From Arenicola marina (lineage: Eukaryota > Annelida > Polychaeta > Arenicolidae), in contig OZ025248.1 in NCBI GenBank assembly GCA_964019135.1, positions 72,174,119 to 72,238,118 of the forward strand: DNA of 64,000 bases, written 5' to 3'. Every line of letters begins with the position of its first letter. Position 1 is the first letter of the stretch. Below, in pieces: positions 1,743-40,100 of the stretch. Position numbers and translations under genes: made by a program. Below the pieces are notes generated by a model. That model searched no databases. It worked only from the letters and a program-made list of their open reading frames with translations, and was not told the origin of the DNA.

Positions 1743-1757
1743 GAATTACACGAGAAT

Positions 1758-4035: not shown

Positions 4036-4042
4036 TTTGCAG
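4015..4042 (+). promoter_or_regulatory. Predicted branch point and 3' splice site of exon 1
   Basis: CTGAC at 4015-4019 belongs to the final satellite unit, and its A (4018) is 24 nt before the acceptor AG at 4041-4042. That is within normal metazoan branch-point spacing. The tract between them is GATGTGTTTCGCGTGTTTTG. This is a sequence prediction only. Confidence 0.55.
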
Positions 4043-4106
4043 GACGAGAAGAACACATCCGGGTCCCGTGGTGCACATCAGCGACAACCCTGTGGACAGC
4101 AATAAG
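4043..4106 (+). CDS. STXBP5: Tomosyn exon 1 (first in window)
   Basis: Encodes (x)TRRTHPGPVVHISDNPVDSNK. The first base completes a codon begun in an upstream exon outside the window, and the exon ends on a full codon (AAG). Acceptor TTTTGCAG, donor GTGAGC. THPGPVVHISDNP is a hallmark stretch of tomosyn between the early blades of propeller 1, just before the LLIGFES strand supplied by the next exon. The coding match and both splice sites make this exon secure, although it is only 64 bp. Confidence 0.92.
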
Positions 4107-13100: not shown

Positions 13101-16100
13101 CCCGCCTGCCCCCCACCCCCGCCTGCCCCGCCACCTTCACATCTCCACCTCACATCTCCCTCTCCTCTCGGGCTGTGGGACCTGGATAGATATTCTTGGT
13201 GGGTGCCTAGCTGTTTTACCCGTGCTCCGTCCGTTTGCGTCCTCGGGCCCTGTCCCTGGGAGTATGCGACAGCCAAGCTGGGAGAGGAGGAGCGCCGAGG
13301 GCTGGGATGGGCCCACAGGATGGGTAGGCTCACTAGCGCCCTCGTCAGGCGAGCCGGCCGGCTGGATGGCTGGCTCCCTGCTCCCCCGGCTGGCTGGCTG
13401 ACGGCCTGACAGAGGTTATCGGACAGGGAACCAGTCAATCGATAGATAAGGCGGACCGGTGCAAGGCTGGGTCGCCGTGCCTCCGGAGCTGATGGTGTGA
13501 GCAGGGTAACTGTGACGGTGATGAACTATACGGGGGCAAGGGGTGGGGGGCAAGGGGTGGTGGGAGGGGTTGGGGGTGGCGCGGGTGATGGTGTTTCAGC
13601 GAGCAGTGATGGGTGGGGGGGGGGGGTCGTTGGGAGGGACGGTGATTTATGAGACGACTCTTGGGGGGATCCTTATTGTGCTGCTCAATATCACCCCCTG
13701 CCCCTCACCCCCCCCCACCCCACCCCCAAACCCGACCCGACCCGGCACCCACCCCCCAGCCTAACCCGCTCCGAGCACCCACCCCCCCTCCGCCTCCAAC
13801 CTCTCCATGTGACTGCACAGACGGGAATTATCATATGTTAGCCCAAAAGGCGGGACAGCCAATCGGGGGTCTTCGGGACCGTACGAAACTGTCCGGTAGT
13901 TGGCTGTGTAGGGTCTCCGTGTACTGCATTGTTCCCAGCGCCGGGGTGTGTGCTGCTTTCAGTATACCGCATTGTTCCCAGCGCCGGGGTGTGTGCTGCT
14001 TTCAGTATACCGCATTGTTCCCAGCGCCGGGGTGTGTGCTGCTTTCAGTATACTGCATTGTTCCCAGCGCCGGGGTGTGTGCTGCTTTCAGTATACCGCA
14101 TTGTTCCCAGCGCCGGGGTGTGTGCTGCTTTCAGTATACTGCATTGTTCCCAGCGCCGGGGTGTGTGCTGCTTTCAGTATACCGCATTGTTCCCAGCGCC
14201 GGGGTGTGTGCTGCTTTCAGTATACTGCATTGTTCCCAGCGCCGGGGTGTGTGCTGCTTTCAGTATACTGCATTGTTCCCAGCGCCGGGGTGTGTGCTGC
14301 TTTCAGTATACTGCATTGTTCCCAGCGCCGGGGTGTGTGCTGCTTTCAGTATACTGCATTGTTCCCAGCGCCGGGGTGTGTGCTGCTTTCAGTATACCGC
14401 ATTGTTCCCAGCGCCGGGGTGTGTGCTGCTTTCAGTATACTGCATTGTTCCCAGCGCCGGGGTGTGTGCTGCTTTCAGTATACTGCATTGTTCCCAGCGC
14501 CGGGGTGTGTGCTGCTTTCAGTATACTGCATTGTTCCCAGCGCCGGGGTGTGTGCTGCTTTCAGTGTGCTGCTTTCAGTATACTGCATTGTTCCCAGCGC
14601 CGGGGTGTGTGCTGCTTTCAGTATACTGCATTGTTCCCAGCGCCGGGGTGTGTGCTGCTTTCAGTATACTGCATTGTTCCCAGCGCCGGGGTGTGTGCTG
14701 CTTTCAGTATACCGCATTGTTCCCAGCGCCGGGGTGTGTGCTGCTTTCAGTATACTGCATTGTTCCCAGCGCCGGGGTGTGTGCTGCTTTCAGTATACTG
14801 CATTGTTCCCAGCGCCGGGGTGTGTGCTGCTTTCAGTATACTGCATTGTTCCCAGCGCCGGGGTGTGTGCTGCTTTCAGTATACCGCATTGTTCCCAGCG
14901 CCGGGGTGTGTGCTGCTTTCAGTATACCGCATTGTTCCCAGCGCCGGGGTGTGTGCTGCTTTCAGTATACTGCATTGTTCCCAGCGCCGGGGTGTACAGC
15001 CACAGAACACATGTGCCGGTTGTCTCAGGCTGACCCTCCTATAGACGCCATGCTCAAAATACGCGTTTACCGTATTGCACAACAAAACCGGTTCATCTTG
15101 TCACGAATCAATGAAAAAATTGCCCCTGTTTATCTTTTACTTTTGTTGGTAGGTCTGTGATAAAATGGCTCATATTATTAATATTTGTAGCGAATAAATT
15201 GTATCGTTAATGTAGTGCAAATGGATCGAACATTTGCAAAATAAAATAAGACCTAAGAGACTTTAAACGAAAGAAACAAGGAGACATGTTAACTCCCAGC
15301 ATATGTGTAAGCTCAACTTGAATTTAAATTGGACTCGTAATGATAATAATAGCGCGAGTTTTGCATGGCGTTAGGCATTTTATTGACCGTTCATCAATCT
15401 GTAGCATCCTTTCATTTTCATTATCCGCGGCCGTCTACAGCGAGATGTCAGGCCAATCATTGTCTGACACCCTGATAACTCGCGCTATTGTTATATTAAT
15501 ATTTTATCTCATATTTTTCTATTTTCTTCATTCGTTGACTACAATCTTGTTGTTGAAATGCACATTTATATATATTTGATTGAATTATTGCATCCCTTTT
15601 CCGTGGTTTGTTCCAGTCGTTGACGTCCATCAGCTGGCACCACGAGGGGAAGCAGTTCGTCTGTAGTCATGGCGACGGCAGTCTCAGCTTCTGGAATACG
15701 AAAACTCCGCTTAAACCTCAAAACGTGCTCATGCCACACTGTAAGTACTATTGCCCCGCCCCGCCCCGCCCCGCCCCGCCCCGCCCTGCCCCGCGAGGAG
15801 TAGGTCATGGCCTGTCACCAGGTGGCGCAGTGAGGAGAGGTCACGAGGATTAGGTCATGGCCGGTCACCAGGTGGCGCTGTGAGGAGAGGTCACGAGGTG
15901 TAGAACATGGCCGGTCACCAGGTGGCGCTGCGAGGAGAGGTCACGAGGATTAGGTCATGGCCGGTCACCAGGTGGCGCTGTGAGGAGGGGTTACGAGGAT
16001 TAGGTCATGGCCGGTCACCAGGTGGCGCTGTGAGGCGAGGTCACGAGGTGTAGGCCATGGCCGGTAACCAGGTGGCGCTGCGAGGAGCGGTCATGAGAAG

Positions 16101-19100
16101 TAAGTCATGGCCGGTCACCAGGTGGCGCTGCGAGGAGAGGTCATGAGGAGTAAGTCATGGCCGGTCACCAGGTGGCGCTGCGAGGCCATGCCAGCCGGCT
16201 TTACGCTATCCTTTGCATTCCGCTCTGTGTGGTGAAAACTCGCGTGATCTAGAGAGCGGATTAGTGCGTCTCAGACTGTGGGTGAGTCTCTGCGATACGG
16301 GATATTGAAGGGCGGGGGTGGAGGGTTGGGGGGGTGGGGGGGTGGGTGGATGGTGGTAAGGGGGGATGTAAAGAGAAGTCGGGAGTGGCTGGCTTGGACG
16401 GTGGGTGAGGTTAGGGACGGCCCAGGCCAGGAGACCAGGTCGCTTTACCCACTCAGTCCTCCTTTAATGTCACCGTCAATGGATGGCCTGAAATATCCCT
16501 TCCCCCGAACCAACCCGCTATAAGACCCTCCCCCCGCCCACCCCGCTCACCTCTCAACCTGGGTCGAGCCATGGGGCTTTAAGGGGAGTGGCGGGATTTT
16601 CAGGACGAATTAGTAAAGTCTGAGGGGGGGAAATTTCCTTTGGGTTTGCAAGCAAAGGCAGCGCAAACGAGAAAATCTGGGGGCTTAATTAATGGCGAAA
16701 AAACACTTGGCATTTATTATAATATATGGAGGGGATTTACATCCCGGCGACTGGTCTGGTGCATCGGAGTTAACCATATGAACAAGATCAATGGGTGTGC
16801 TTGCTTCTTGGAAGAGCTTTTGTCTAAAACCGGTGCCTGGAGATATTCGGAGCCTCGTGCCTTGTGTGACGTCATTGCTGTTTACCGGTGAGGGCGACGC
16901 CGGCGGTGATCACCATTGGCTACAGAATGACGCGCGGGAATGAGCTGAACGCCCAGTGAACCGATACAGTAGAACATGCTTGCCTCTACCAAGGTGAACC
17001 GACACAGTAGAACATGCTTGCCTCTACCAAGGGGAACCGACACAGTAGAACATGCTTGCCTCTACCAAGGGGAACCGATACAGTAGAACATGCTTGCCTC
17101 TACCAAGGGGAACCGACACAGTAGAACATGCTTGCCTCTACCAAGGTGAACCGATACAGTAGAACATGCTTGCCTCTACCAAGGTGAACCGACACAGTAG
17201 AACATGCTTGCCTCTACCAAGGGGAACCGACACAGTAGAACATGCTTGCTTCTACCAAGGGGAACCGATACAGTAGAACATGCTTGCCTCTACCAAGGGT
17301 AACCGACACAGTAGAACATGCTTGCCTCTACCAAGGGGAACCGACACAGTAGAACATGCTTGCCTCTACCAAGGGGAACCGACACAGTAGAACATGCTTG
17401 CCTCTACCAAGGGGAACCGACACAGTAGAACATGCTTGCCTCTACCAAGGGGAACCGACACAGTAGAACATGCTTGCCTCTACCAAGGGGAACCGACACA
17501 GTAGAACATGCTTGCCTCTACCAAGGGGAACCGACACAGTAGAACATGCTTGCCTCTACCAAGGGGAACCGACACAGTAGAACATGCTTGCCTCTACCAA
17601 GGGGAACCGACACAGTAGAACATGCTTGCCTCTACCAAGGGGAACCGACACAGTAGAACATGCTTGCCTCTACCAAGGGGAACCGATGTCACATCCCTGC
17701 TGCATGCCTCTACTAACGTTTCGTGAACAGATACACCTCTACTAACGTGAACAGATACAGTAGAACACCCTAAGCCCGTACCTCTACTGATGTGAACAGA
17801 TACAGTTGGACACCCTAGGCCCATACCTCTACAAACGTTAACAGATACAGTGGAGCATCCTAGGCCCGCACCTCTACAGATGTAGATGTAAACACAGTGA
17901 AACACCCTAGGCCCGTACCTCTACTAACGTGAACAGATACAGTGGGATTCCCTAGGCCCGTCCCTCTTCTAACGTGAACAGATACTGTGGGACACCGTAG
18001 GCCCATACCTCTACTAACGTGGACAGATACGGTGGAACATCCTAGACCCATACCTCTACTAACGTGAACAGATACGAGCGTGAGCAGATACAGTGAAACA
18101 CCCTAGGCACGCACCTCTACTAATATGAACAGATACAGTGGAACACAATAGGCCCGTCCCTCTACTAACGTGAACAGGTACAGGGGAACACCCTAGACCC
18201 ATACCTCTACTAACGTTATCAGATACAGTGAAACATCCTAGGCCCATACCTCTACTAACGTGAACAGATACGAGCGTGAGCAGATACAGTGAAACACCCT
18301 AGACCCATACCTCTACTAACGTTAACAGATAAAGTGGAACACCCTAAGCCCTTACCTCTACTAACGTTAACAGATACAGTGGAACACCCTAGGCCCGTCC
18401 TTCTACTAACGTAAACAGATACAGTGGGACACCCTAGGCCCGTCCTTCTACTAACGTAAACAGATACAATGGGACACCCTAGGCCCGCACCTCTACTAAC
18501 GTGAACAGATACAGTGGGACACCCTAGGCCCGTACCTCTACTAACGTGAACAGATACAGTGGGACACCTTAGGCCCGCACCTCTACTAACGTGAACAGAT
18601 ACAGTGGGACACCCTAGGCCCGCACCTCTACTAACGTGAACAGATACAGTGGGACACCCTAGGCCCGTACCTCTACTAACGTGAACAGATACAGTGGGAC
18701 ACCTTAGGCCCGCACCTCTACTAACGTGAACAGATACAGTGGAACACCCTAGGCTCGCACCTCAACTAACGTGAACAGATACAGTGGGACACCCTAGGCC
18801 CGTACCTCTACTAACGTGAACAGATACAGTGGGACACCTTAGGCCCGTACCTCTACTAACGTGAACAGATACAGTGGGACACCCTAGGCCCGCACCTCTA
18901 CTAACGTGAACAGATACAGTGGGACACCCTAGGCCTGTCCTTCTACTAACGTGAACAGATACAGTGGGACACCCTAGGCCCGTCCTTCTACTAACGTGAA
19001 CAGATACAATGGGACACCCTAGGCCCGCACCTCTACTAACGTGAACAGATACAGTGGGACACCCTAGGCCCGTACCTCTACTAACGTGAACAGATACAGT

Positions 19101-22100
19101 GGGACACCCTAGGCCCGTCCTTCTACTAACGTAAACAGATACAGTGGGACACCCTGGGCCCGCACCTCTACTAACGTGAACAGATACAATGGAACATCTT
19201 TGGTCCGCACCTCTACTAACGTGAACAGATACAGTGGGACACCCTGGGCCCGCACCTCTACTAACGTAAACAGATACAGTGGGACACCTTAGGCCCGTAC
19301 CTCTACTAACGTGAACAGATACAGTGGGACACCCTAGGCCCGTCCTTCTACTAACGTAAACAGATACAGTGGGACACCCTGGGCCCGCACCGCTACTAAC
19401 GTGAACAGATACAGTGGGACACCTTAGGCCCGTACCTCTACTAACGTTAACAGGTACAGTGGAACACCCTAGGCCCGTCCTTCTACTAACGTGAACAGAT
19501 ACAATGGGACACCCTAGGCCCGTCCTTCTACTAACGTGAACAGATACAGTGGGACACCCTAGGCCCGTCCTTCTACTAACGTGAACAGATACAGTGGGAC
19601 ACCCTAGGCCCGTCCTTCTACTAACGTAAACAGATACAATGGGACACCCTAGGCCCGCACCTCTACTAACGTGAACAGATACAGTGGGACATCCTAGGCC
19701 CGTACCTCTACTAACGTGAACAGATACAGTGGGACACCCTAGGCCCGTCCTTCTACTAACGTAAACAGATACAGTGGGACACCCTAGGCCCGCACCTCTA
19801 CTAACGTGAACAGATACAATGGAACATCTTTGGTCCGCACCTCTACTAACGTGAACAGATACAGTGGGACACCCTAGGCCCGTCCTTCTACTAACGTAAA
19901 CAGATACAGTGGGACACCCTGGGCCCGCACCTCTACTAACGTGAACAGATACAGTGGGACACCCTAGGCCCGTCCTTCTACTAACGTAAACAGATACAGT
20001 GGGACACCCTGGGCCCGCACCTCTACTAACGTGAACAGATACAATGGAACATCTTTGGTCCGCATCTCTACTAACGTAAACAGATACAGTGGGACACCCT
20101 GGGCCGGCACCTCTACTAACGTGAACAGATACAATGGAACATCTTTGGTCCGCACCTCTACTAACGTGAACAGATACAGTGGGACACCCTAGGCCCGTAC
20201 CTCTACTAACGTGAACAGATACAGTGGGACACCCTAGGCCCGTACCTCTACTAACGTGAACAGATACAGTGGGACACCCTAGGCCCGTACCTCTACTAAC
20301 GTGAACAGATACAGTGGGACACCCTAGGCCCGTACCTCTACTAACGTGAACAGATACAGTGGGACACCCTAGGCCCGTCCTTCTACTAACGTAAACAGAT
20401 ACAGTGGGACACCTTAGGCCCGTACCTCTACTAACGTGAACAGATACAGTGGGACACCCTAGGCCCGTCCTTCTACTAACGTAAACAGATACAGTGGGAC
20501 ACCCTAGGCCCGTCCTTCTACTAACGTGAACAGATACAATGGGACACCCTAGGCCCGCACCTCTACTAACGTGAACAGATACAGTGGGACACCCTAGGCC
20601 CGTACCTCTACTAACGTGAACAGATACAGTGGGACACCCTAGGCCCGTCCTTCTACTAACGTAAACAGATACAGTGGGACACCCTAGGCCCGTACCTCTA
20701 CTAACGTGAACAGATACAGTGGGACACCCTAGGCCCGTCCTTCTACTAACGTAAACAGATACAGTGGGACACCCTAGGCCCGTCCTTCTACTAACGTGAA
20801 CAGATACAATGGGACACCCTAGGCCCGCACCTCTACTAACGTGAACAGATACAGTGGGACTCCCTAAGCCCTTACCTCTACTAACGTTAACAGGTACAGT
20901 GGAACACCCTAGGCCCGTCCTTCTACTAACGTGAACAGATACAATGGGACACCCTAGGCCCGCACCTCTACTAACGTGAACAGATACAGTGGGACTCCCT
21001 AAGCCCTTACCTCTACTAACGTGAACAGATACAGTGGGACACCCTAGGCCCGTACCTCTACTAACGTGAACAGATACAGTGGGACACCCTAGGCCCGTCC
21101 TTCTACTAACGTAAACAGATACAGTGGGACACCCTAGGCCCGTACCTCTACTAACGTGAACAGATACAGTGGGACACCCTAGGCCCGTCCTTCTACTAAC
21201 GTAAACAGATACAGTGGGACACCCTAGGCCCGTCCTTCTACTAACGTGAACAGATACAATGGGACACCCTAGGCCCGCACCTCTACTAACGTGAACAGAT
21301 ACAGTGGGACATCCTAGGCCCGTACCTCTACTAACGTAAACAGATACAGTGGGACACCCTAGGCCCGTCCTTCTACTAACGTAAACAGATACAGTGGGAC
21401 ACCCTGGGCCCGTACCTCTACTAACGTGAACAGATACAATGGAACATCCTTGGTCCGCACCTCTACTAGTGTGAACAGATACTGATTTACAGAGGGTTTT
21501 TGAGTGACCAAAACCAAAAAAATGGCAAAACGCTAGCGGTACTGGACGAGACACGGTCCATCAGCTCGGCATCTCAAAGGGCACGCCGGGTCGGGATGTC
21601 GCTTGTCCCTCGGGGATATGACTTCCACACGAGAGACAAGTCAGTGGTGGCGGCCGCTGGCAGGGGGTAGGGGTGGGCAAGCTGGGCAGGGTGCATAGAC
21701 AGGTGGCAGTCGCGACGCGTCAGCGCTTAACATTCGAAATCCGATTGGTCTGTCGGTAACCTCCAGTATATAGGGTCGGCTACGGCGACCTCCGGTATAT
21801 AGGGTCGGCTACAACGACCTCCAGTATATAGGATCGGCTATTACGACCTCCAGTATATAGGGTCGGCTAGCACGACCTCCAGTATATAGGGTCGGCTACT
21901 ACGACATCCAGTATATAGGGTCGGCTACTACGACCTCCAGTATATAGGGTCGGCTACAACGACCTCCAGTATGTAGGGTCGGCTACCACGACCTCCAGTA
22001 TATAGGGTCGGCTACAACGACCTCCTGTATATAGGGTCGGCTACAACGACCACCAGTATATAGGGTCGGCTACCACGACCTCCAGTATATGGGGTCGGCT

Positions 22101-25100
22101 ACAACGACCTCCAGTATATAGGGTCGGCTACTACGACCTCCAGTATATAGGGTCGGCTACTACGACCTTCAGTATATAGGGTCGGCTACTACGACCTCCA
22201 GTATATAGGGTCGGCTACAACGACCTCCAGTATATAGGGTCGGCTACTACGACGACCTCCAGTATATATGGTCGGCTACTACGACCTCCAGTATATAGGG
22301 TCGGCTACCACGACCTCCAGTATATAGGGTCGGCTACAACGACCTCCAGTATATAGGGTCGGCTACAACGACCTCCAGTATATAGGGTCGGCTACAACGA
22401 CCTCCAGTATACAGGGTCGGCTACTACGACCTCCAGTATATAGGGTCGGCTACGGCGACCTCCACTATATATAGGGTCGGTTACTACGACCTCCAGTATA
22501 TAGGGTCGGCTACAACGACCTCCAGTATATAGGGTCGGCTACTACGACCTCCAGTAAATAGGGTCGGCTACAACGACCTCCAGTATATAGGGTCGGCTAC
22601 AACGACCTCCAGTATATAGGGTCGGCTACTACGACGACCTCCAGTATATAGGGTCGGCTACTACCACCTCCAGTATATAGGGTCGGCTACGACGACCTCC
22701 AGTATATAGGGTCGGCTACGACGACCTCCAGTATATAGGGTCGGCTACTACGACCTCCAGTATATAGGGTCGGCTACGACGACCTGCAGTATATAGGGTC
22801 GGCCACGGCGACCTCCAGTATATAGGGTCGGCTACAACGACCTCCAGTATATAGGGTCGGCTACTGCGAAGACATTGCAGTCTTTATGGGTATCTGTAGT
22901 GATGGGTTTGTAGTTTGTAGCTGTTTCGATTGTATTTTGGGGGTCGGGTAAGGAGTGAGGCGCGGGGGGGGGGGATTTCGTGTTCACTTTTTTGGGTATA
23001 GGCCATTGAGGGGAGGGGAGACTGGGGTCAAGGCCATTGAGGGGAGGGGAGACTGGGGTCAAGTTGGTGTTCACCAACCTTTAAATTGACCCATGATCTA
23101 GGTCAGACGACTAAGTGTGTGGACGTTACACGGACTGTCAGTAGACATCTGTTGAATAGCGAGGCTGCATCCTGTAGCCTCTTCACGTAGCCATGTTGGC
23201 GGCTGTGGGTTCTCATCATCTCAACAACCTATCTCTCTATCCGGGACCGTTTCATGACGTCATCACGTTGTCCCAGGAGTTTCTTGGTCCGGTTAATTTA
23301 GTCCATGGGTACGCAAAGGGGTGTACCAAACATCGGTGCTAGCAACCGTCATGCTTAGGCCAGGCCGTCTAGGCTGTTTGCACCATTTGAGTTGACAGAT
23401 ATATTATTGGTTCAAAGTCTAGGGGGGGCTGCAGAGTCAGGGCTTGACTAATAACAATGAGATTGGATACTTAAGTCCTACACTATAAGCTCTGGACCAA
23501 CACGAACCAGGTTATATGTAATGTGCTCTCGGGGTGGAGAGACAGAGGGAGAGAGAGCGGATGAGAGTGGGTGGTGGGTAGGGGTGAGGAGGAAGACGGT
23601 GGGGGGGGGGGGGGTGTTGTAAATGCTGTTTGTGGCTGTCGATATATTGAGTGTTCATCTGTCCATCACCCTGTCTATTTCCCTCCCTCTACCGTGTGGT
23701 ATTGTCTCTGCCCCGACCAGTAAGCAGTCGGGTTTGCGGTGCCGCGATGTGACTATTTGTCAGTGGAGTCTAGTTTTGAGATTGCATCGCCCCGTGCAAA
23801 CAATACTTGCCCGCTCCCCCATCCCCTACACCGCCATTAAGTCGCCGCCTTGGACGTGCCCCGGACAGTTGCTAGGAGGGACTGACTTCCCTCTCCCCGA
23901 TTTTGTCATCGGTGCGATTTTTATCCACGTGGTGTTCCGCCTATTGCCTCATTACCCCCACCCCCGCCGCCTACCCCCGCCCCTCTCTCTCCTACCCGCC
24001 CCACCCCACCACTCTCTTTAATCTCCCCCTGCTCATGACCGCCACGTCTCCCTTCCCCACCNNNNNNNNNNNNNNNNNNNNNNNNNNNNNNNNNNNNNNN
24101 NNNNNNNNNNNNNNNNNNNNNNNNNNNNNNNNNNNNNNNNNNNNNNNNNNNNNNNNNNNNNNNNNNNNNNNNNNNNNNNNNNNNNNNNNNNNNNNNNNNN
24201 NNNNNNNNNNNNNNNNNNNNNNNNNNNNNNNNNNNNNNNNNNNNNNNNNNNNNNNNNNNNNACTCCTTCGCGCACGCCCGATTAACCAAATTTAGGAAAT
24301 GGGCGAAAGAAAAGTGATTCTATTTGCCGAAAACGCCATTTGTACCCGAAAAGTACTTCTTTACGAAACTAAAAAAGCCTACTTCTCCTCCAAATCGACC
24401 AATTTTGCATAAATAACATCGTGGACTCTTTCGCGCATGCCCGATTAACCAAATTTAGGAAATGGGCGAAAGAAAAGTGATTCTATTTGCCGAAAACGCC
24501 ATTTGTACCCGAAAAGTACTTCTTTACGAAACTAAAAAAGCCTACTTCTCCTCCAAATCGACAAACTTTGCATAAATAACATCATGGACCACTTCGCGCA
24601 TGCCCGATTAACCAAATTTTCGAAATGGGCGAAACAAAAGTGATTCTATTTGCCGAAAACGCCATTTTTACCCGAAAAGTACTTCTTTACGAAACTAAAG
24701 AAGCCTACTTCTCCTCCAAATCGACAAATTTTGCATAAATAACATCATGGACTCCTTCGCGCATGCCCGATTAACCAAATTTAGGAAATGGGCGAAACAA
24801 AAGTCATTCTATTTGCCGAAAACGCCATTTGTACCCGAAAAGTACTTTTTTACGAAACTAAAATAGCCTACTTCTCCTCTAAATCGACCAATTTTGCATA
24901 AATAACATCGTGGACTCCTTTGCGCATGCCCGATTAACCAAATTTAGGAAATGGGCGAAAGAAAAGTGATTCTATTTGCCGAAAACGCCATTTGTACCCG
25001 AAAAGTACTTTTTTACGAAACTGAAAAAGCCTACTTCTCCTCCAAATCGACAAACTTTGCATAAATAACATCGTGGACTCTTTCGCGCATGCCCGATTAA

Positions 25101-28100
25101 CCAAATTTAGGAAATGGGCGAAACAAAAGTGATTCTATTTGCCGAAAACGCCATTTGTACCCGAAAAGTACTTCTTTACGAAACTAAAAAAGCCTACTTC
25201 TCCTCCAAATCGACAAACTTTGCATAAATAACATCATGGACTCCTTCGCGTACCCCCGATTAACCAAATTTAGGAAATGGGCGAAAGAAAAGTGATTCTA
25301 TTTGCCGAAAACGCCATTTGTACCCGAAAAGTACTTCTTTACGAAACTAAAAAAGCCTACTTCTCCTCCAAATCGACAAACTTTGCATAAATAACACCAT
25401 GGACCACTTCGCGCATGCCCGATTAACCAAATTTTGGAAATAGCGCCGGGGTGTGTGCTGCTTTCAGTATACCGCATTGTTCCCAGCGCCGGGGTGTGTG
25501 CTGCTTTCAGTATACTGCATTGTTCCCAGCGCCGGGGTGTGTGCTGCTTTCAGTATACTGCATTGTTCCCAGCGCCGGGGTGTGTGCTGCTTTCAGTATA
25601 CCGCATTGTTCCCAGCGCCGGGGTGTGTGCTGCTTTCAGTATACTGCATTGTTCCCAGCGCCGGGGTGTGTGCTGCTTTCAGTATACTGCATTGTTCCCA
25701 GCGCCGGGGTGTGTGCTGCTTTCAGTATACTGCATTGTTCCCAGCGCCGGGGTGTGTGCTGCTTTCAGTATACTGCATTGTTCTCAGCGCCGGGGTGTGT
25801 GCTGCTTTCAGTATACTGCATTGTTCCCAGCGCCGGGGTGTGTGCTGCTTTCAGTATACTGCATTGTTCCCAGCGCCGGGGTGTGTGCTGCTTTCAGTAT
25901 ACTGCATTGTTCCCAGCGCCGGGTGTGTGCTGCTTTCAGTATACTGCACTGCATTGTTCCCAGCGCCGGGGTGTGTGCTGCTTTCAGTATACCGTATTGT
26001 TCCCAGCGCCGGGGTGTGTGCTGCTTTCAGTATACCGCATTGTTCCCAGCGCCGGGGTGTGTGCTGCTTTGAGTATACTGCATTGTTCCCAGCGCCGGGG
26101 TGTGTGCTGCTTTCAGTATACTGCATTGTTCCCAGCGCCGGGGTGTGTGCTGCTTTCAGTATACTGCATTGTTCCCAGCGCCGGGGTGTGTGCTGCTTTC
26201 AGTATACCGCATTGTTCCCAGCGCCGGGGTGTGTGCTGCTTTCAGTATACTGCATTGTTCCCAGCGCCGGGGTGTGTGCTGCTTTCAGTATACCGTATTG
26301 TTCCCAGCGCCGGGGTGTGTGCTGCTTTCAGTATACCGCATTGTTCCCAGCGCCGGGGTGTGTGCTGCTTTCAGTATACCGCATTGTTCCCAGCGCCGGG
26401 GTGTGTGCTGCTTTCAGTATACCGCATTGTTCCCAGCGCCGGGGTGTGTGCTGCTTTCAGTATACCGCATTGTTCCCAGCGCCGGGGTGTGTGCTGCTTT
26501 CAGTATACTGCATTGTTCCCAGCGCCGGGGTGTGTGCTGCTTTCAGTATACCGCATTGTTCCCAGCGCCGGGGTGTGTGCTGCTTTCAGTATACCGTATT
26601 GTTCCCAGCGCCGGGGTGTGTGCTGCTTTCAGTATTCCGCATTGTTCCCAGCGCCGGGGTGTGTGCTGCTTTCAGTATACTGCATTGTTCCCAGCGCCGG
26701 GGTGTGTGCTGCTTTCAGTATACTGCATTGTTCCCAGCGCCGGGGTGTGTGCTGCTTTCAGTATACTGCATTGTTCCCAGCGCCGGGGTGTGTGCTGCTT
26801 TCAGTATACTGCATTGTTCCCAGCGCCGGGGTGTGTGCTGCTTTCAGTATACCGCATTGTTCCTAGCGCCGGGGTGTGTGCTGCTTTCAGTATACCGCAT
26901 TGTTCCCAGCGCCGGGGTTTGTGCTGCTTTCAGTATACCGCATTGTTCCCAGCGCCGGGGTGTGTGCTGCTTTCAGTATACTGCATTGTTCCCAGCGCCG
27001 GGGTGTGTGCTGCTTTCAGTATACTGCATTGTTCCCAGCGCCGGGGTGTGTGCTGCTTTCAGTATACCGCATTGTTCCCAGCGCCGGGGTGTGTGCTGCT
27101 TTCAGTATACTGCATTGTTCCCAGCGCCGGGGTGTGTGCTGCTTTCAGTATACTGCATTGTTCCCAGCGCCGGGGTGTGTGCTGCTTTCAGTATACCGCA
27201 TTGTTCCCAGCGCCGGGGTGTGTGCTGCTTTCAGTATACTGCATTGTTCCCAGCGCCGGGGTGTGTGCTGCTTTCAGTATACCGCATTGTTCCCAGCGCC
27301 GGGGTGTGTGCTGCTTTCTGTATACTGCATTGTTCCCAGCGCCGGGGTGTGTGCTGCTTTCAGTATACCGCATTGTTCCTAGCGCCGGGGTGTGTGCTGC
27401 TTTCAGTATACCGCATTGTTCCCAGCGCCGGGGTGTGTGCTGCTTTCAGTATACCGTATTGTTCCCAGCGCCGGGGTGTGTGCTGCTTTCAGTATACCGC
27501 ATTGTTCCCAGCGCCGGGGTGTGTGCTGCTTTCAGTATACTGCATTGTTCCCAGCGCCGGGGTGTGTGCTGCTTTCAGTATACTGCATTGTTCCCAGCGC
27601 CGGGGTGTGTGCTGCTTTCAGTATACTGCATTGTTCCCAGCGCCGGGGTGTGTGCTGCTTTCAGTATACCGCATTGTTCCCAGCGCCGGGGTGTGTGCTG
27701 CTTTCAGTATACTGCATTGTTCCCAGCGCCGGGGTGTGTGCTGCTTTCAGTATACTGCATTGTTCCCAGCGCCGGGGTGTGTGCTGCTTTCAGTATACTG
27801 CATTGTTCCCAGCGCCGGGGTGTGTGCTGCTTTCAGTATACTGCATTGTTCCCAGCCCCGGGGTGTGTGCTGCTTTCAGTATACTGCATTGTTGCCAGCG
27901 CCGGGGTGTGTGCTGCTTTCAGTATACCGTATTGTTCCCAGCGCCGGGGTGTGTGCTGCTTTCAGTATACCGCATTGTTCCCAGCGCCGGGGTGTGTGCT
28001 GCTTTCAGTATACTGCATTGTTCCCAGCGCCGGGGTGTGTGCTGCTTTCAGTATACTGCATTGTTCACAGCGCCGGGGTGTGTGCTGCTTTCAGTATACT

Positions 28101-31100
28101 GCATTGTTCCCAGCGCCGGGGTGTGTGCTGCTTTCAGTATACCGCATTGTTCCCAGCGCCGGGGTGTGTGCTGCTTTGAGTATACTGCATTGTTCCCAGC
28201 GCCGGGGTGTGTGCTGCTTTCAGTATACTGCATTGTTCCCAGCGCCGGGGTGTGTGCTGCTTTCAGTATACTGCATTGTTCCCAGCGCCGGGGTGTGTGC
28301 TGCTTTCAGTATACCGCATTGTTCCCAGCGCCGGGGTGTGTGCTGCTTTCAGTATACCGCATTGTTCCCAGCGCCGGGGTGTGTGCTGCTTTCAGTATAC
28401 CGCATTGTTCCCAGCGCCGGGGTGTGTGCTGCTTTGAGTATACTGCATTGTTCCCAGCGCCGGGGTGTGTGCTGCTTTCAGTATACTGCATTGTTCCCAG
28501 CGCCGGGGTGTGTGCTGCTTTCAGTATACTGCATTGTTCCCAGCGCCGGGGTGTGTGCTGCTTTCAGTATACCGCATTGTTCCCAGCGCCGGGGTGTGTG
28601 CTGCTTTCAGTATACTGCATTGTTCCCAGCGCCTGGGTGTGTGCTGCTTTCAGTATACTGCATTGTTCCCAGCGCCGGGGTGTGTGCTGCTTTCAGTATA
28701 CTGCATTGTTCCCAGCGCCGGGGTGTGTGCTGCTTTCAGTATACTGCATTGTTCCCAGCGCCGGGGTGTGTGCTGCTTTCAGTATACTGCATTGTTCCCA
28801 GCGCCGGGGTGTGTGCTGCTTTCAGTATACTGCATTGTTCCCAGCGCCGGGGTGTGTGCTGCTTTCAGTATACCGCATTGTTCCCAGCGCCGGGGTGTGT
28901 GCTGCTTTCAGTATACTGCATTGTTCCCAGCGCCGGGGTGTGTGCTGCTTTCAGTATACTGCATTGTTCCCAGCGCCGGGGTGTGTGCTGCTTTCAGTAT
29001 ACCGCATTGTTCCCAGCGCCGGGGTGTGTGCTGCTTTCAGTATACTGCATTGTTCCCAGCGCCGGGGTGTGTGCTGCTTTCAGTATACCGCATTGTTCCC
29101 AGCGCCGGGGTGTGTGCTGCTTTCAGTATACTGCATTGTTCCCAGCGCCGGGGTGTGTGCTGCTTTCAGTATACCGCATTGTTCCCAGCGCCGGGGTGTA
29201 CAGCCACAGAACACATGTGCCGGTTGTCTCAGGCTGACCCTCCTATAGACGCCACGCTCAAAATACGCGTTTACCGTATTGCACAACAAAACCGGTTCAT
29301 CTTGTCACGAATCAATGAAAAAATTGCCCCTGTTTATCTTTTACTTTTGTTGGTAGGTCTGTGATAAAATGGCTCATATTATTAATATTTGTAGCGAATA
29401 AATTGTATCGTTAATGTAGTGCAAATGGATCGAACATTTGCAAAATAAAATAAGACCTAAGAGACTTTAAACGAAAGAAACAAGGAGACATGTTAACTCC
29501 CAGCATATGTGTAAGCTCAACTTGAATTTAAATTGGACTCGTAATGATAATAATAGCGCGAGTTTTGCATGGCGTTAGGCATTTTATTGACCGTTCATCA
29601 ATCTGTAGCATCCCTTCATTTTCATTATCCGCGGCCGTCTACAGCGAGATGTCAGGCCAATCATTGTCTGGCACCCCGATAACTCGCGCTATTGTTATAT
29701 TAATATTTTATCTCATATTTTTCTATTTTCTTCATTCGTTGACTACAATCTTGTTGTTGAAATGCACATTTATATATATTTGATTGAATTATTGCATCCC
29801 TTTTCCGTGGTTTGTTCCAGTCGTTGACGTCCATCAGCTGGCACCACGAGGGGAAGCAGTTCGTCTGTAGTCATGGCGACGGCAGTCTCAGCTTCTGGAA
29901 TACGAAAACTCCGCTTAAACCTCAAAACGTGCTCATGCCACACTGTAAGTACTATTGCCCCGCCCCGCCCCGCCCCGCCCCGCCCCGCCCCGCGAGGAGT
30001 AGGTCATGGCCTGTCACCAGGTGGCGCAGTGAGGAGAGGTCACGAGGATTAGGTCATGGCCGGTCACCAGGTGGCGCTGTGAGGAGGGGTTACGAGGATT
30101 AGGTCATGGCCGGTCACCAGGTGGCGCTGTTAGGCGAGGTCACGAGGTGTAGGCCATGGCCGGTAACCAGGTGGCGCTGCGAGGAGCGGTCATGAGAAGT
30201 AAGTCATGGCCGGTCACCAGGTGGCGCTGCGAGGAGAGGTCATGAGGAGTAAGTCATGGCCGGTCACCAGGTGGCGCTGCGAGGCCATGCCAGCCGGCTT
30301 TACGCTATCCTTTGCATTCCGCTCTGTGTGGTGAAAACTCGCGTGATCTAGAGAGCGGATTAGTGCGTCTCAGACTGTGGGTGAGTCTCTGCGATACGGG
30401 ATATTGAAGGGCGGGGGTGGAGGGTTGGGGGGGTGGGGGGGTGGGTGGATGGTGGTAAGGGGGGATGTAAAAAGAAGTCGGGAGTGGCTGGCTTGGACGG
30501 TGGGTGAGGTTAGGGACGACCCAGGCCAGGAGACCAGGTCGCTTTACCCACTCAGTCCTCCTTTAATGTCACCGTCAATGGATGGCCTGAAATATCCCTT
30601 CCCCCGAACCAACCCGCTATAAGACCCTCCCCCCGCCCACCCCGCTCACCTCTCAACCTGGGTCGAGCCATGGGGCTTTAAGGGGAGTGGCGGGATTTTC
30701 AGGACGAATTAGTAAAGTCTGAGTGGGGGGGGAAATTTCCTTTGGGTTTGCAAGCAAAGGCAGCGCAAACGAGAAAATCTGGGGGCTTAATTAATGGCGA
30801 AAAAACACTTGGCATTTATTATAATATATGGAGGGGATTTACATCCCGTCGACTGGTCTGGTGCATCGGAGTTAACCATATGAACAAGATCAATGGGTGT
30901 GCTTGCTTCTTGGAAGAGCTTTTGTCTAAAACCGGTGCCTGGAGATATTCGGAGCCTCGTGCCTTGTGTGACGTCATTGCTGTTTACCGGTGAGGGCGAC
31001 GCCGGCGGTGATCACCATTGGCTACAGAATGACGCGCGGGAATGAGCTGAACGCCCAGTGAACCGATACAGTAGAACATGCTTGCCTCTACCAAGGGGAA

Positions 31101-34100
31101 CCGACACAGTAGAACATGCTTGCCTCTACCAAGGGGAACCGACACAGTAGAACATGCTTGCCTCTACCAAGGGGAACCGATACAGTAGAACATGCTTGCC
31201 TCTACCAAGGGGAACCGACACAGTAGAACATGCTTGCCTCTACCAAGGGGAACCGATACAGTAGAACATGCTTGCCTCTACCAAGGGGAACCGACACAGT
31301 AGAACATGCTTGCTTCTACCAAGGGGAACCGATACAGTAGAACATGCTTGCCTCTACCAAGGGGAACCGACACAGTAGAACATGCTTGCCTCTACCAAGG
31401 GGAACCGACACAGTAGAACATGCTTGCCTCTACCAAGGGGAACCGACACAGTAGAACATGCTTGCCTCTACCAAGGGGAACCGACACAGTAGAACATGCT
31501 TGCCTCTACCAAGGGGAACCGACACAGTAGAACATGCTTGCCTCTACCAAGGGGAACCGATGTCACATCCTTGCTGCATGCCTCTACTAACGTTTCGTGA
31601 ACAGATACAGTAGAACACCCTAAGCCCGTACCTCTACTGATTTGAACAGATACAGTTGGACACCCTAGGCCCATACCTCTACAAACGTTAACAGATACAG
31701 TGGAGCATCCTAGGCCTGCACCTCTACAGATGTAGATGTAAACACAGTGGAACACCCTAGGCCCGTACCTCTACTAACGTGAACAGATACAGTGGGACTC
31801 CCTAGGCCCGTCCCTCTTCTAACGTGAACAGATACTGTGGGACACCGTAGGCCCATACCTCTACTAACGTGGACAGATACGGTGGAACATCCTAGACCCA
31901 TACCTCTACTAACGTGAACAGATACGAGCGTGAGCAGATACAGTGAAACACCCTAAGCACGCACCTCTACTAACGTTAACAGATAAAGTGGAACACCCTA
32001 AGCCCTTACCTCTACTAACGTGAACAGATACAGTGGAACACCCTAGGCCCGTCCTTCTACTAACGTTAACAGATACAGTGGAACACCCTAGGCCCGTCCT
32101 TCTACTAACGTTAACAGATACAGTGGAACACCCTAGGCTCGCACCTCTACTAACGTGAACAGATACAGTGGAACACCCTAAGCCCTTACCTCTACTAACG
32201 TTAACAGATACAGTGGAACACCCTAGGCCCGTCCTTCTACTAACGTGAACAGATACAGTGGGACACCCTAGGCTCGCACCTCTACTAACGTTAACAGATA
32301 AAGTGGAACACCCTAAGCCCTTACCTCTACTAACGTTAACAGATACAGTGGAACACCCTAGGCCCGTCCTTCTACTAACGTGAACAGATACAGTGGGACA
32401 CCCTAGGCCCACAGCTCAACTAACGTGAACAGATACAGTGGGACACCCTAGGCCCGCACCTCTACTAACGTGAACAGATACAGTGGAACACCCTAGGCCC
32501 GTACCTCTACTAACGTTAACAGATACAGTGGAACACCCTAGGCCCGTCCTTCTACTAACGTGAACAGATACAGTGGGACACCCTAGGCCCGCACCTCTAC
32601 TAACGTAAACAGATACAGTGGGACACCCTAGGCCCGCACCTCTACTAACGTGAACAGATACAGTGGAACACCCTAGGCCCGTACCTCTACTAACGTTAAC
32701 AGATACAGTGGAACACCCTAGGCCCGTCCTTCTACTAACGTGAACAGATACAGTGGGACACCCTAGGCCCGCACCTCTACTAACGTAAACAGATACAGTG
32801 GAACACCCTAGGCCTGTCCTTCTACTAACGTGAACAGATAAAGTGGGACACCCTAGGCCCGCACCTCTACTAACGTGAACAGATACAGTGGGACACCTTA
32901 GGCCCGTCCTTCTACTAACGTGAACAGATAAAGTGGGACACCTTAGGCCCGTACCTCTACTAACGTGAACAGATACAGTGGGACACCTTAGGCCCGCACC
33001 TCTACTAACGTTAACAGATACAGTGGGACACCTTAGGCCCGTCCTTCTACTAACGTAAACAGATACAGTGGGACACCCTAGGCCCGTACCTCTACTAACG
33101 TGAACAGATACAGTGGGACACCTTAGGCCCGCACCTCTACTAACGTGAACAGATACAGTGGGACACCCTAGGCCCGTACCTCTACTAACGTGAACAGATA
33201 CAGTGGGACACCTTAGGCCCGCACCTCTACTAACGTGAACAGATACAGTGGAACACCCTAGGCTCGCACCTCAACTAACGTGAACAGATACAGTGGGACA
33301 CCCTAGGCCCGTCCTTCTACTAACGTGAACAGATACAGTGGGACACCCTAGGCCCGTACCTCTACTAACGTGAACAGATACAGTGGGACACCCTAGGCCC
33401 GCACCTCTACTAACGTGAACAGATACAGTGGGACACCCTAGGCCTGTCCTTCTACTAACGTGAACAGATACAGTGGGACACCCTAGGCCCGTACCTCTAC
33501 TAACGTGAACAGATACAGTGGGACACCCTAGGCCCGTCCATCTACTAACGTAAACAGATACAATGGAACATCCTTGGTCCGCACCTCTACTAGTGTGAAC
33601 AGATACAGTGGGACACCTTAGGCCCGCACCTCTACTAGTGTGAACAGATACAGTGGGACACCCTAGGCCCGTACCTCTACTAACGTAAACAGATACAGTG
33701 GGACACCTTAGGCCCGCACCTCTACTAACGTGAACAGATACAGTGGGACACCCTAGGCCCGTACCTCTACTAACGTGAACAGATACAATGGAACATCCTT
33801 GGTCCGCACCTCTACTAACGTGAACAGATACAATGGAACATCCTTGGTCCGCACCTCTACTAGTGTGAACAGATACTGATTTACAGAGGGTTTTTGAGTG
33901 ACCAAAACCAAAAAAATGGCAAAACGCTAGCGGTACTGGACGAGACACGGTCCATCAGCTCGGCATCTCAAAGGGCACGCCGGGTCGGGATGTCGCTTGT
34001 CCCTCGGGGATATGACTTCCACACGAGAGACAAGTCAGTGGTGGCGGCCGCTGGCAGGGGGTAGGGGTGGGCAAGCTGGGCAGGGTGCATAGACAGGTGG

Positions 34101-37100
34101 CAGTCACGACGCGTCAGCGCTTAACATTCGAAATCCGATTGGTCTGTCGGTAACCTCCAGTATATAGGGTCGGCTACGGCGACCTCCGGTATATAGGGTC
34201 GGCTACAACGACCTCCAGTATATAGGATCGGCTATTACGACCTCTAGTATATAGGGTCGGCTACAACGACCTCCAGTATATAGGGTCGGCTACAACGACC
34301 TCCAGTATATAGGGTCGGCTACTACGACCTCCAGTATATAGGGTCGGCTACGGCAACCTCCACTATATATAGGGTCGGTTACTACGACCTCCAGTATATA
34401 GGGTCGGCTACAACGACCTCCAGTATATAGGGTCGGCTACTACGACCTCCAGTATATAGGGTCGGCTACAACGACCTCCAGTATATAGGGTCGGCTACAA
34501 CGACCTCCAGTATATAGGGTCGGCTACTACGACGACCTCCAGTATATAGGGTCGGCTACTACCACCTCCAGTATATAGGGTCGGCTACAACGACCTCCAG
34601 TATATAGGGTCGGCTACGACGACCTCCAGTATATAGGGTCGGCTACTACGACCTCCAGTATATAGGGTCGGCTACTGCGAAGACATTGCAGTCTTTATGG
34701 GTATCTGTAGTGATGGGTTTGTAGTTTGTAGCTGTTTCGATTGTATTTTGGGGGTCGGGTAAGGAGTGAGGCGCCGGGGGGGGGGGGGGGATTTCGTGTT
34801 CACTTTTTTGGGTATAGGCCATTGAGGGGAGGGGAGACTGGGGTCAAGGCCATTGAGGGGAGGGGAGACTGGGGTCAAGTTGGTGTTCACCAACCTTTAA
34901 ATTGACCCATGATCTAGGTCAGACGACTAAGTGTGTGGACGTTACACGGACTGTCAGTAGACATCTGTTGAATAGCGAGGCTGCATCCTGTAGCCTCTTC
35001 ACGTAGCCATGTTGGCGGCTGTGGGTTCTCATCATCTCAACAACCTATCTCTCTATCCGGGACCGTTTCATGACGTCATCACGTTGTCCCAGGAGTTTCT
35101 TGGTCCGGTTAATTTAGTCCATGGGTACGCAAAGGGGAGTACCAAACATCGGTGCTAGCAACCGTCATGCTTAGGCCAGGCCGTCTAGGCTGTTTGCACC
35201 ATTTGAGTTGACAGATATAGTATTGGTTCAAAGTCTAGGGGGGGCTGCAGAGTCAGGGCTTGACTAATAACAATGAGATTGGATACTTAAGTCCTACACT
35301 ATAAGCTCTGGACCAACACGAACCAGGTTATATGTAATGTGCTCTCGGGGTGGAGAGACAGAGGGAGAGAGAGCGGATGAGAGTGGGTGGTGGGTAGGGG
35401 TGAGGAGGAAGACGGTGGGGGGGGGGGTGTTGTAAATGCTGTTTGTGGCTGTCGATATATTGAGTGTTCATCTGTCCATCACCCTGTCTATTTCCCTCCC
35501 TCTACCGTGTGGTATTGTCTCTGCCCCGACCAGTAAGCAGTCGGGTTTGCGGTGCCGCGATGTGACTATTTGTCAGTGGAGTCTAGTTTTGAGATTGCAT
35601 CGCCCCGTGCAAACAATACTTGCCCGCTCCCCCATCCCCTACACCGCCATTAAGTCGCCGCCTTGGACGTGCCCCGGACAGTTGCTAGGAGGGACTGACT
35701 TCCCTCTCCCCGATTTTGTCATCGGTGCGATTTTTATCCACGTGGTGTTCCGCCTATTGCCTCATTACCCCCACCCCCGCCGCCTACCCCCGCCCCTCTC
35801 TCTCCTACCCGCCCCACCCCACCACTCTCTTTAATCTCCCCCTGCTCATGACCGCCACGTCTCCCTTCCCCACCCTACGGTCCTTTTATTGTGGAAATAA
35901 CGAGAACTTTTTCTGGCGGCGCGTTGCTGTGGCGACATGGACATGGCGCGAGAACAAATCAGGGTGGGGTGACCAGAATGAAATAGAGGGGGAGGGGTAG
36001 GTGGGGGGTGAGGGAGGGAGGGGAGGGGAGGGGGGGTGGTCGCGGGGTTATGGGGATGGATTTGGGATTTTCTCTAGTTAACACGCAGCCAATTTTCGTG
36101 GCAGACTGCGTTGAAGGTTTCAGTGATTGGCACTTTGGAAAAGGTTCTCTGTTTTTTTTGGGTTACGAGTCGCATGGCTGCGGCTGTTGGAAGCAGACGG
36201 CTTGTCGCACCGTGGGCGGGAAAGCACGCACGCCGATGAGGGGAAAAAATGGTCCCTCTTCTGCACGTATTGATGCGCTATTAGGTAATTCGACACCGGC
36301 TCACGGTTAGACCACTTTAAACCCCGCCGCATTTAATAGATCTACTCCTGTACCGCGTAATGGGAAAGACATTGTAAGATTAACGACACTTAACTGGACT
36401 CACATGGATATCGACCGAACCGTCGCCGTTTAAACCTTTAATGTGGCTAAAACGTCAACACAAAATACCGGCGGAAGCACTTTGAGACCGACAACCGATA
36501 AGCTCTTACTGTGCTGTAATCTTGTTAACTAAATTGCAAGTTCATCCAACTTGTCTAATGGTGATATTAAAGGGTCTGCCGGTAAACAGCGGCAGAGGAA
36601 CAAAGAATTGGACAAGCGATTGACACATACTTGTATTATGTCTAGGTCCTGGACCTCCAGGTGTCCGTTCATTGTCCCACATCCGTCTCTCGCTATTGAT
36701 CCAGTACGTAGCATTTTAAAGCGATGTGGTGCGAACCAGCAGTAGTTTTATCTTATACATTGTATTAGGAGTTGATGTGCGGCTGTAGTACTCAATACTA
36801 GACGTGAAGGCTATATTAATGTTGAGTTGTTTTCGATAGCACCCACCTGGCGCATAGGAATGCATGGTTGTGAGCAAAGACATAGACATTTGGGCACCCA
36901 GCAAATACATATACTTTCATGGTTTTAAATGTGAATATACTGCTATTGTTTTAGTCATATTGGTTAGCGTTTTACTCATTTATCATCATAATCTAGTGTA
37001 ACAAGGAGGCTAACATTGGAGATCCTTGGATGGTGTCACGATGGTACGAGCAACAATACAAGTACACAATCCCCTCCCATCCCCTGCCCCTTCCCATGCC

Positions 37101-40100
37101 CCTTCCCCCAGTACCCCCCCCCCCCCCGCTCCTTCCCCCTGTACCCGTGTCAATTTATTCGGATAACTTCTGTGTGGAATGTGTTTGACTGCATCTTACT
37201 TTCCAGCCGTACACGGCAATCCAAGACATGGCAATGTGCCACAATTGTTTCCGTTGAAGCAATTTTCTCTTTGATATATATAGCACGGTATATACAGACG
37301 TACAGACTGCCGTTAATGTCCAATGAAATCAACGTATAGAATGTTACAAAATAGACATAAAGGTACCTAGAAATATCATGCATCATGGCATGTGTCTGGT
37401 AACAGTTTGGAACCAAATTAATGAAAGTAAAATAACGATCTTATCTCATGTTATCTTATCTTATCTTCCTTGACAGTACGGATAGGGAAGGACGGGAAGC
37501 AGGAACCATGTCGGCCCATCCAGAAAGTCGACTGGAAAACCGTCAGAAACGGGTGGGTACCAGTTAGCCTAACGGCTTCATCCTTGTATATTATAGACTG
37601 CCTAACGGTTTCATTTTAATTGTAGATCGTGGACTGTCCAACGGGTTACCGTAATTAATCTTACATGATCCCTTCACATTTTGTTGTCTCCAGCTCAGTT
37701 GGTAAGCTCAGTTGGTAAGCTTAGTTGGTAAGCTGGCGGTGTTGTATATCAAACGATCGCTACAAACCCTGACGTGTTTCGTTTCTGTTTGTCTGAGTTC
37801 GTGTCTTAGTGCTACAGCGGGGGAGCGGGGATTTGTTTCCTGCTGATTAATTTCCTTTGTTTCATTCTCCGGCGCTGCCAGGCGACTGCTAGGAATGGGG
37901 TTCGTGCCGCTCCCGTCGCACAGTGCCGGCGCCACTGTCGCCCAAAAGCAATCCCTTCATTAGACCTATTTTGTCGCCGCCTACGCCTCTCGTCTTTTCT
38001 CAATCATTCAAAACATAAGGCACCCCACCAAGTAAGAATTATACCGCCGACTGGCGCCGCCAACTATCGCCCTCCCACTACCCCTACCCCTGTGCACCTA
38101 GACCTCTCTCTGACCTTCCCTTTGGTCGATCTGATGATCCAACCCCACACATCTAGCCCCCCCCCTTCTCACTCCATGTGATCATAACACAATGCGCGTC
38201 AAGCCCCCCCCCCCTTCCCCTCGCCTTAGTCCATCTGATCACCCCACCCCACGCACCAAACCATCTCCTCCCCCTCCCCTAGTCCCCTCCCTCGCAGCCC
38301 ACCTGATCCCTCGACTCCACTTTAAAGCACCCCCTCCTCCTTTCCCTTCTCTTTCCCTCGTCCCCTCCCCTCCCCTACCCTCCTCTTCTCTCCTACTCCC
38401 CTTAGTCCATCTGATGATTCCACCCCATGCAACAAACAATCTCCTCCCCCCCTCCCCCCCATCTCCCCCTCTCAGTTAATCTGATCCCCCTCCCCTCCTC
38501 CCTTCCCCTCTCTTCCCCTTCCCCTTCCCCTCCCCTCTCCATGTCCCCCTTCCCCTCCCGCTAATAGCCACCCCCCACACCCGCACCCCCCCCCCCCTGA
38601 CTCTCAGCCCCCCCCCCTCCACCCCCCACCCCCGCCCCCTCGCGCCACATACTACTGCCGTATGTCTAATTAACAAAATGGCCGTCGTTAATGTCAGTTG
38701 TCGTTGATCGATAACAGGGGGCGTGTTAATAATTCACTCTCCCGGCGGTTCATGGTTCATTATGTGCGAGCTACGAGCAGCCAAGCCACATATGAAGACA
38801 CGACCCCAAGACTTAAGATTTATGGCCAATGGCGAGACACGCGGTGTGCCTCCTTAGTAGCGTGGACAAATGAACCATACCATTGGCCTCGAGCTCGCCC
38901 CCCATTATGAAATATTTAGCTAAAAAATATCGCTTTGGTGGGATAGATTTTTCCACGTGCGGGAAAATATATATTATGCTATTTTATTATGTTATATATA
39001 TTATAGAAATATAGTTGTTTACAACGATAAAGGCGTGAGAGTTCTTTTGTGGAACATAGGATCGCGCATGCTTTGAACGGATGCTATTGGGAGTGTAAGG
39101 CTCTAGTGAGGTGTGGTGTACGAGGAGGTTCTCGCCAGCTATGTTCCCCGTCGGGTCATTATATTCATTGGCGAACTTTAAAGGCTCAGCATTGACTTTT
39201 GGAAATCTTGAATTTGCCTGTTGTTCTGTACCCGCTGATATTCTAATGAGGAAACAAAAAAACAAAACCGAAAAAAAAATCTTAATTCGCTTATCCTTAA
39301 AATTGTCATCATATCTGAAGTTCACTTAATTGGCAGTTTGGAAATGGTCTCAGCTACGCTTGGTATTGCTTCGATCGGTTCCCACACCGTGGTTCCATCA
39401 GGCTGTTCTTCACTTTATTTGCTTAAACATATAACTTCAAGAGTCGATCTGACACGTCACACTACCTCTTGGCTGGGTCAATACCTCTCACTGCCAGTTA
39501 TAATAGTCCGCTAGCGTAGTCTTGTTATCGTTCTTTGTCATTTGCCGTCCCTTTGTGTACCTTGAACCTCTTCGGCAGGCAGGGTCATGGGCTGCGGGTC
39601 TCTAGTCGCCGGGGTGAACCCCACTTTAAAGCCATTTGGGAACAAAGTCTGAAAAGCAGCTCAGAATAGGACGTGAGTTTGGTTCTCTGTGAAAGGGGAG
39701 ACTTGAGGGGGGATATGGTGGTTGGGGGGTTGGGGTGGTGGTAGGGAACAGCGCGGTTGGGGGGTGGAGGTAGGGAGCAGCGGGGTGGAGGGCGGGGGTG
39801 GGGGGTGCGGAGGCAATGTATGTGGGGTGGCAGAGGAGAGATGGGTGATGTAGCGTGGGTAGGAGTGGGGAGCAGATGGCCATGTAGGGAGAGAAGCAGA
39901 GGAAACGTGGATGGTGCGGCGGTGGGGGGGGGGGGGTGGGGTGCTCGCAGAGGGAAATATGGGGAGCGGGGGTTAGAGAAGATGTTTGTGGTGTGAGGTT
40001 GGCATAGGGGATAGGCTGGGCGGCGGAGAGGGGGAGTAGAGGAGACATGGGTGGAGGGGGGGGGGTGGAGCGTGTGCAATGTGAGGCAAGGGGGGGGGGT

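Follow-up and report, generated by a model that had tools for sequence, protein, structure and literature searches.

Does the second copy of a coding exon and its surrounding intron at this locus reflect a true duplication within the gene, or have two alleles of the same stretch been set end to end in the assembly? We addressed this question in a 64-kb window (C1:72174119-72238118, numbered below from its first base) of C1, which measures 77.0 Mb; genome-wide searches covered 867 Mb in 762 contigs. The doubled stretch consists of two copies, here A and B, in the same orientation, and the layout found with TRF is identical in both: a 43-bp array is followed by a spacer that holds the coding exon, then by a GCCCC run and by the 50-, 38-, 45- and 29-bp arrays, and a 1.2-kb terminal spacer closes the stretch. 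This is the common order of at least five arrays, 'exon 3' and spacers that a sequence-only reading of the window had described, where 'exon 3' is a relative number since the protein start was outside our query. The limits which that reading gave for copy A (13922-24061) held exactly, while its start for copy B (25441) is one base early, being the last base of the satellite at 24262-25441, and homology begins at 25442. The window has a single gap, exactly 200 N long, which lies between the copies, and the homology between A and B reaches 24061, the last base before it, so that copy A does end at a round gap as had been proposed.

Coordinates of the doubled stretch, the gap and the neighboring exon pieces within the window
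Feature	Position	Strand	Description	Method
Preceding tomosyn-like exon piece	8910..8996	+	single copy; ends in phase 0 before GTAAGT	
Copy A	13922..24061	+	right end of left contig	TRF, alignment
Tomosyn-like coding exon, copy A	15617..15740	+	124 nt, phase 0 to 1	
Scaffolding gap	24062..24261	.	200 N	
163-bp satellite, 7.2 copies	24262..25441	+	start of right contig	TRF
Copy B	25442..35874	+	right contig, after satellite; probable allelic counterpart of copy A	TRF, alignment
Tomosyn-like coding exon, copy B	29821..29944	+	identical to copy A exon	
Following tomosyn-like exon piece	37477..37550	+	single copy; weak match alone, E 0.069	

By blastn at E 1e-6, the flanks (1-13921 and 35875-64000) matched neither each other nor the interval 13922-35874, and the last 30 bases of copy A occur twice in the window while the 31 bases just to its left occur once. 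Across the genome, the terminal spacer of copy A was found at two places, both at this locus, and the left flank at one full-length place, its six other matches being short and 74-81% identical. The 43-bp array matched copies A and B alone in a search that passes over simple repeats and highly frequent words.

Outside the arrays, the two copies are nearly alike. The five spacers differ at 4/757, 3/772, 1/35, 1/276 and 2/1,194 aligned bases, for a sum of 11/3,034, and three short indels separate them as well, one of 3 bp in the second spacer and two, of 5 bp and 3 bp, at G runs in the fifth; an extra 13-bp difference in the third spacer hinges on where TRF places the edge of the 45-bp array. 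With the 35-base piece left out, the rate is 10/2,999, or 0.33% (exact 95% interval 0.16-0.61%), and it is even over the remaining four segments (p 0.59). The unique parts thus differ by scattered substitutions, in agreement with the earlier description. The arrays account for the chief difference between the copies, as also claimed, with wrap-around alignment giving 25 and 88 units in A and B for the 43-bp array, 8 and 6 for the 50-bp array, 20 and 14 for the 38-bp array, 83 and 51 for the 45-bp array, and 38 and 18 for the 29-bp array, a difference of up to 3.5-fold.

We compared the order of units between corresponding arrays with that in 15 shuffles. When scored by alignment, unit order went beyond all 15 shuffles in five of five arrays, and the number of identical unit pairs did so in three of them (5 against a shuffle maximum of 4 in the 50-bp array, 15 against 8 in the 45-bp array and 13 against 9 in the 29-bp array). 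Identical pairs gave no support for a shared order in the 43-bp array, where 20 were counted against a shuffle mean of 20.3 and a maximum of 22, or in the 38-bp array, with 10 against a maximum of 11. In the 45-bp arrays, 15 unit types are held in common, out of 41 and 38, a change that far exceeds the one in the spacers. From the matches in unit order, the arrays of A and B appear to go back to common ancestral arrays that have since gained and lost large blocks.

The exon that lies in both copies belongs to a gene that, by its homology, is tomosyn (STXBP5)-like. Our query was a stretch of human STXBP5 (tomosyn); it lacked the protein start and was run in tblastn at E up to 0.1 with the full list of matches kept. 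The window gave 14 matches, 13 of them exon pieces (12 distinct, in order on the + strand), with match starts at 4050, 8910, 15614 (again at 29818), 37497, 43744, 44373, 49030, 49635, 50030, 50567, 54441 and 54853. The remaining match, on the minus strand at 34800-34645 (E 0.04), was dropped as it has an internal stop. The 10 kb upstream of the window had no match to the STXBP5 query at E 0.5. Among the 174 ORFs listed, seven were run against Pfam and yielded only weak matches below the cut-off: seven for the ORF of the doubled exon (best, the RIG second propeller at E 0.00053 and WD40 at E 0.0029), one each for two other ORFs (E 0.65 and 0.043) and none for the remaining four. A PDB sequence search with the ORF of one later exon returned 0 matches, and since these results are weak or empty, the naming of the gene depends on tblastn with the human STXBP5 stretch. 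ARAGORN, run with the bacterial code, found no tRNA in the window.

Two further features of the gene were seen. Its introns are rich in minisatellites across 1-64000, with periods of 14-101 bp and up to ~155 copies, and in the 10 kb just upstream, matches to the 57-bp array at the left edge of the window occur from about base 1837 up to the end. At 43620-43793 there are two copies of an 85-bp unit (87% matches) that seems to include a splice acceptor and the beginning of a tomosyn-like exon (GREAYIIFSGG), with a stop a few codons into the upstream one of the two.

Among the 12 distinct exon pieces, the 124-nt exon is the only one that is doubled, and its neighbors are each present once and on the expected sides, the left contig leading to exon 2 and the right contig to exon 4, as the sequence-only reading had it. 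What a transcript would encode with one or two copies of this exon can be followed from its phase. After the exon whose last base is 8996, the 124-nt exon begins in phase 0. With one copy included, the tomosyn-like frame (…KQEPCRPIQKVDWK…) is kept when the acceptor AG is that at 37476 or 37485, whereas the AG at 37490 leads to a stop and that at 37499 to a different frame. With two copies in one mRNA, a stop falls at the 17th codon past the exon-exon junction with all four acceptor AGs, so a length of 124 nt does not allow an in-frame duplication. Since double inclusion shifts the frame, a real duplication would need one exon copy to be ignored in splicing, and the non-symmetric length of the exon argues, as far as predicted splicing is a guide, against a functional real duplication.

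At the right edge of the copies, the homology between A and B ends where the left contig ends (24061), and copy B continues uninterrupted to the next exon. On the left side, copy A begins at the first base of its 43-bp array, after non-satellite sequence that occurs once, while copy B begins in the middle of a unit of the 43-bp array, directly after the 163-bp satellite. A duplication breakpoint in unique sequence was not seen on either side of the copies. A G-rich run lies at 35988-36038, ~115 bp past the point where contig A stops, and a local loss of coverage there is a possible cause of the contig end.

The right contig opens with 1,180 bp of the 163-bp satellite, and the junction of satellite and array, 25441|25442, lies inside one contig and has no partner in A. 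Genome-wide, this satellite has at least 171 matches, on several large and small contigs, many of them on C267, a contig of 77 kb; C5, C6 and C20 hold arrays of it. We examined 18 satellite regions, of which one has a gap (C6:34952821-34953020), also of 200 N and followed at once by the same satellite; the 6.8 kb on either side of that site show no overlap. On C6 the satellite is seen again up to ~34978230, where it passes into non-satellite sequence, and on C267 a 28-base poly-G run, perhaps a sequencing artefact, lies inside a satellite unit near the contig end (77099-77126). Since contigs naturally tend to break off in satellite sequence, its presence at the start of the contig of copy B is unsurprising; its junction with the 43-bp array is the surprising part. 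Three origins are conceivable for the satellite at this position: an insertion specific to haplotype B, a chimeric end of the contig, or the true junction of a real duplication.

An assembly artefact is favored by the frame argument together with the gap, the lack of breakpoints and the flanking exons, each present once and in order. We consider the locus most probably (roughly 0.85) a heterotype, or haplotypic, false duplication with 'false exon gain', in which two allelic contigs, the maternal and paternal versions, were scaffolded end to end; this figure and the weights given in words to the two rival readings below are judgements and were not computed. The sequence-only reading had reached the same explanation, and it gains support that stops short of proof from the gap, the homology up to the contig end, the lack of a visible breakpoint in unique sequence, the low and even divergence, the array-length differences and the sides on which the exons lie. 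We infer the allelic status of the copies, the history of the scaffold and the reason that the overlap stayed unmerged as follows. The left contig would carry one allele of the intron-exon-intron stretch of the tomosyn-like gene and end inside it at 24061, and the right contig would carry the other allele, which begins inside the 43-bp array and is preceded by some satellite. The alleles would be nearly alike in unique sequence and strongly unlike in minisatellite length, and due to these length differences the assembler and any purging step would have missed the overlap, after which scaffolding would have ordered the contigs correctly and joined them by a nominal gap of 200 N. Gaps of 200 N occur in published assemblies built by scaffolding, of which PMC12134992 gives one example, and YaHS in general is described in its paper (PMC9848053) as assuming contigs from one haplotype, with haplotypic duplications to be removed first.

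Some observations count against an artefact. A simple allelic overlap would not lead one to expect the satellite at the head of the right contig, and the pair counts in the 43- and 38-bp arrays, the strong change in the 45-bp array and the lack of overlap at the C6 site also speak against it. One rival reading is a true tandem duplication inside the gene, at least 10 kb long, in which satellite lies at the junction and the repeats broke the assembly. The satellite between the copies could then be part of that junction; near-identical copies and a satellite can break an assembly, and arrays would differ between paralogues too. We nevertheless judge a duplication of this kind unlikely, because no breakpoint is seen in unique sequence, the right limit of homology coincides with a contig end and inclusion of both 124-nt exons leads to a stop, so that splicing would have to leave one copy out to avoid a frameshifted transcript; the exon copies are also identical, though at 0.33% divergence this says little. 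Still less probable, and in our estimate very improbable, is a tandem duplication on one haplotype, that is, a copy-number polymorphism represented correctly apart from the gap size. There is precedent for such an event, as Ko et al. 2022 (PMC9516828) cite one true allele-specific tandem duplication at haploid depth, but that case lay within one contig whereas a gap separates the copies here, and the edge of the duplication would have to coincide with the contig end by chance. The satellite could also be accommodated by alleles that are not a simple overlap: we tentatively suggest, as a possibility that we would not bet on, that on haplotype B a genuine block of the 163-bp satellite has dispersed into the intron and sits within the 43-bp minisatellite of the tomosyn-like gene, a polymorphic insertion that would also be the cause of the assembly break.

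If the false duplication that we favor were left in place, the tomosyn-like gene could be annotated with one exon too many, with a frameshift or as a split model, and counts of minisatellites and of exon duplications would be inflated. The locus suggests that allelic overlap can escape notice where alleles differ mainly in the length of tandem arrays. Biologically it is otherwise ordinary, with the edge of the satellite the sole part of interest.

Tandem intragenic exon duplication is a general class of event, and the locus resembles it in having same-orientation exon copies with flanking intron. Unlike members of that class, however, it has no breakpoint visible in unique sequence and its exon is not frame-symmetric. 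A closer comparison is with the false duplications of Ko et al. 2022 (Genome Biol., PMC9516828), which are recognized there by half depth, by gaps that separate duplicates on the same scaffold, by linked reads that are discordant and by 1-copy k-mers; the term 'false exon gain' denotes an exon gained within the same gene. In contrast to the false duplications described there, the right contig here opens with a genome-wide satellite, and the divergence is mostly one of minisatellite length. The gap between duplicates is found here as the 200 N at 24062-24261, and as in the heterotype false duplications set out there (PMC9516828), the duplicate is adjacent on one scaffold with a gap between the copies. 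As in their false exon gain, one whole exon of the same gene is gained (15617-15740 / 29821-29944), its coding status being assigned by homology rather than from transcripts.
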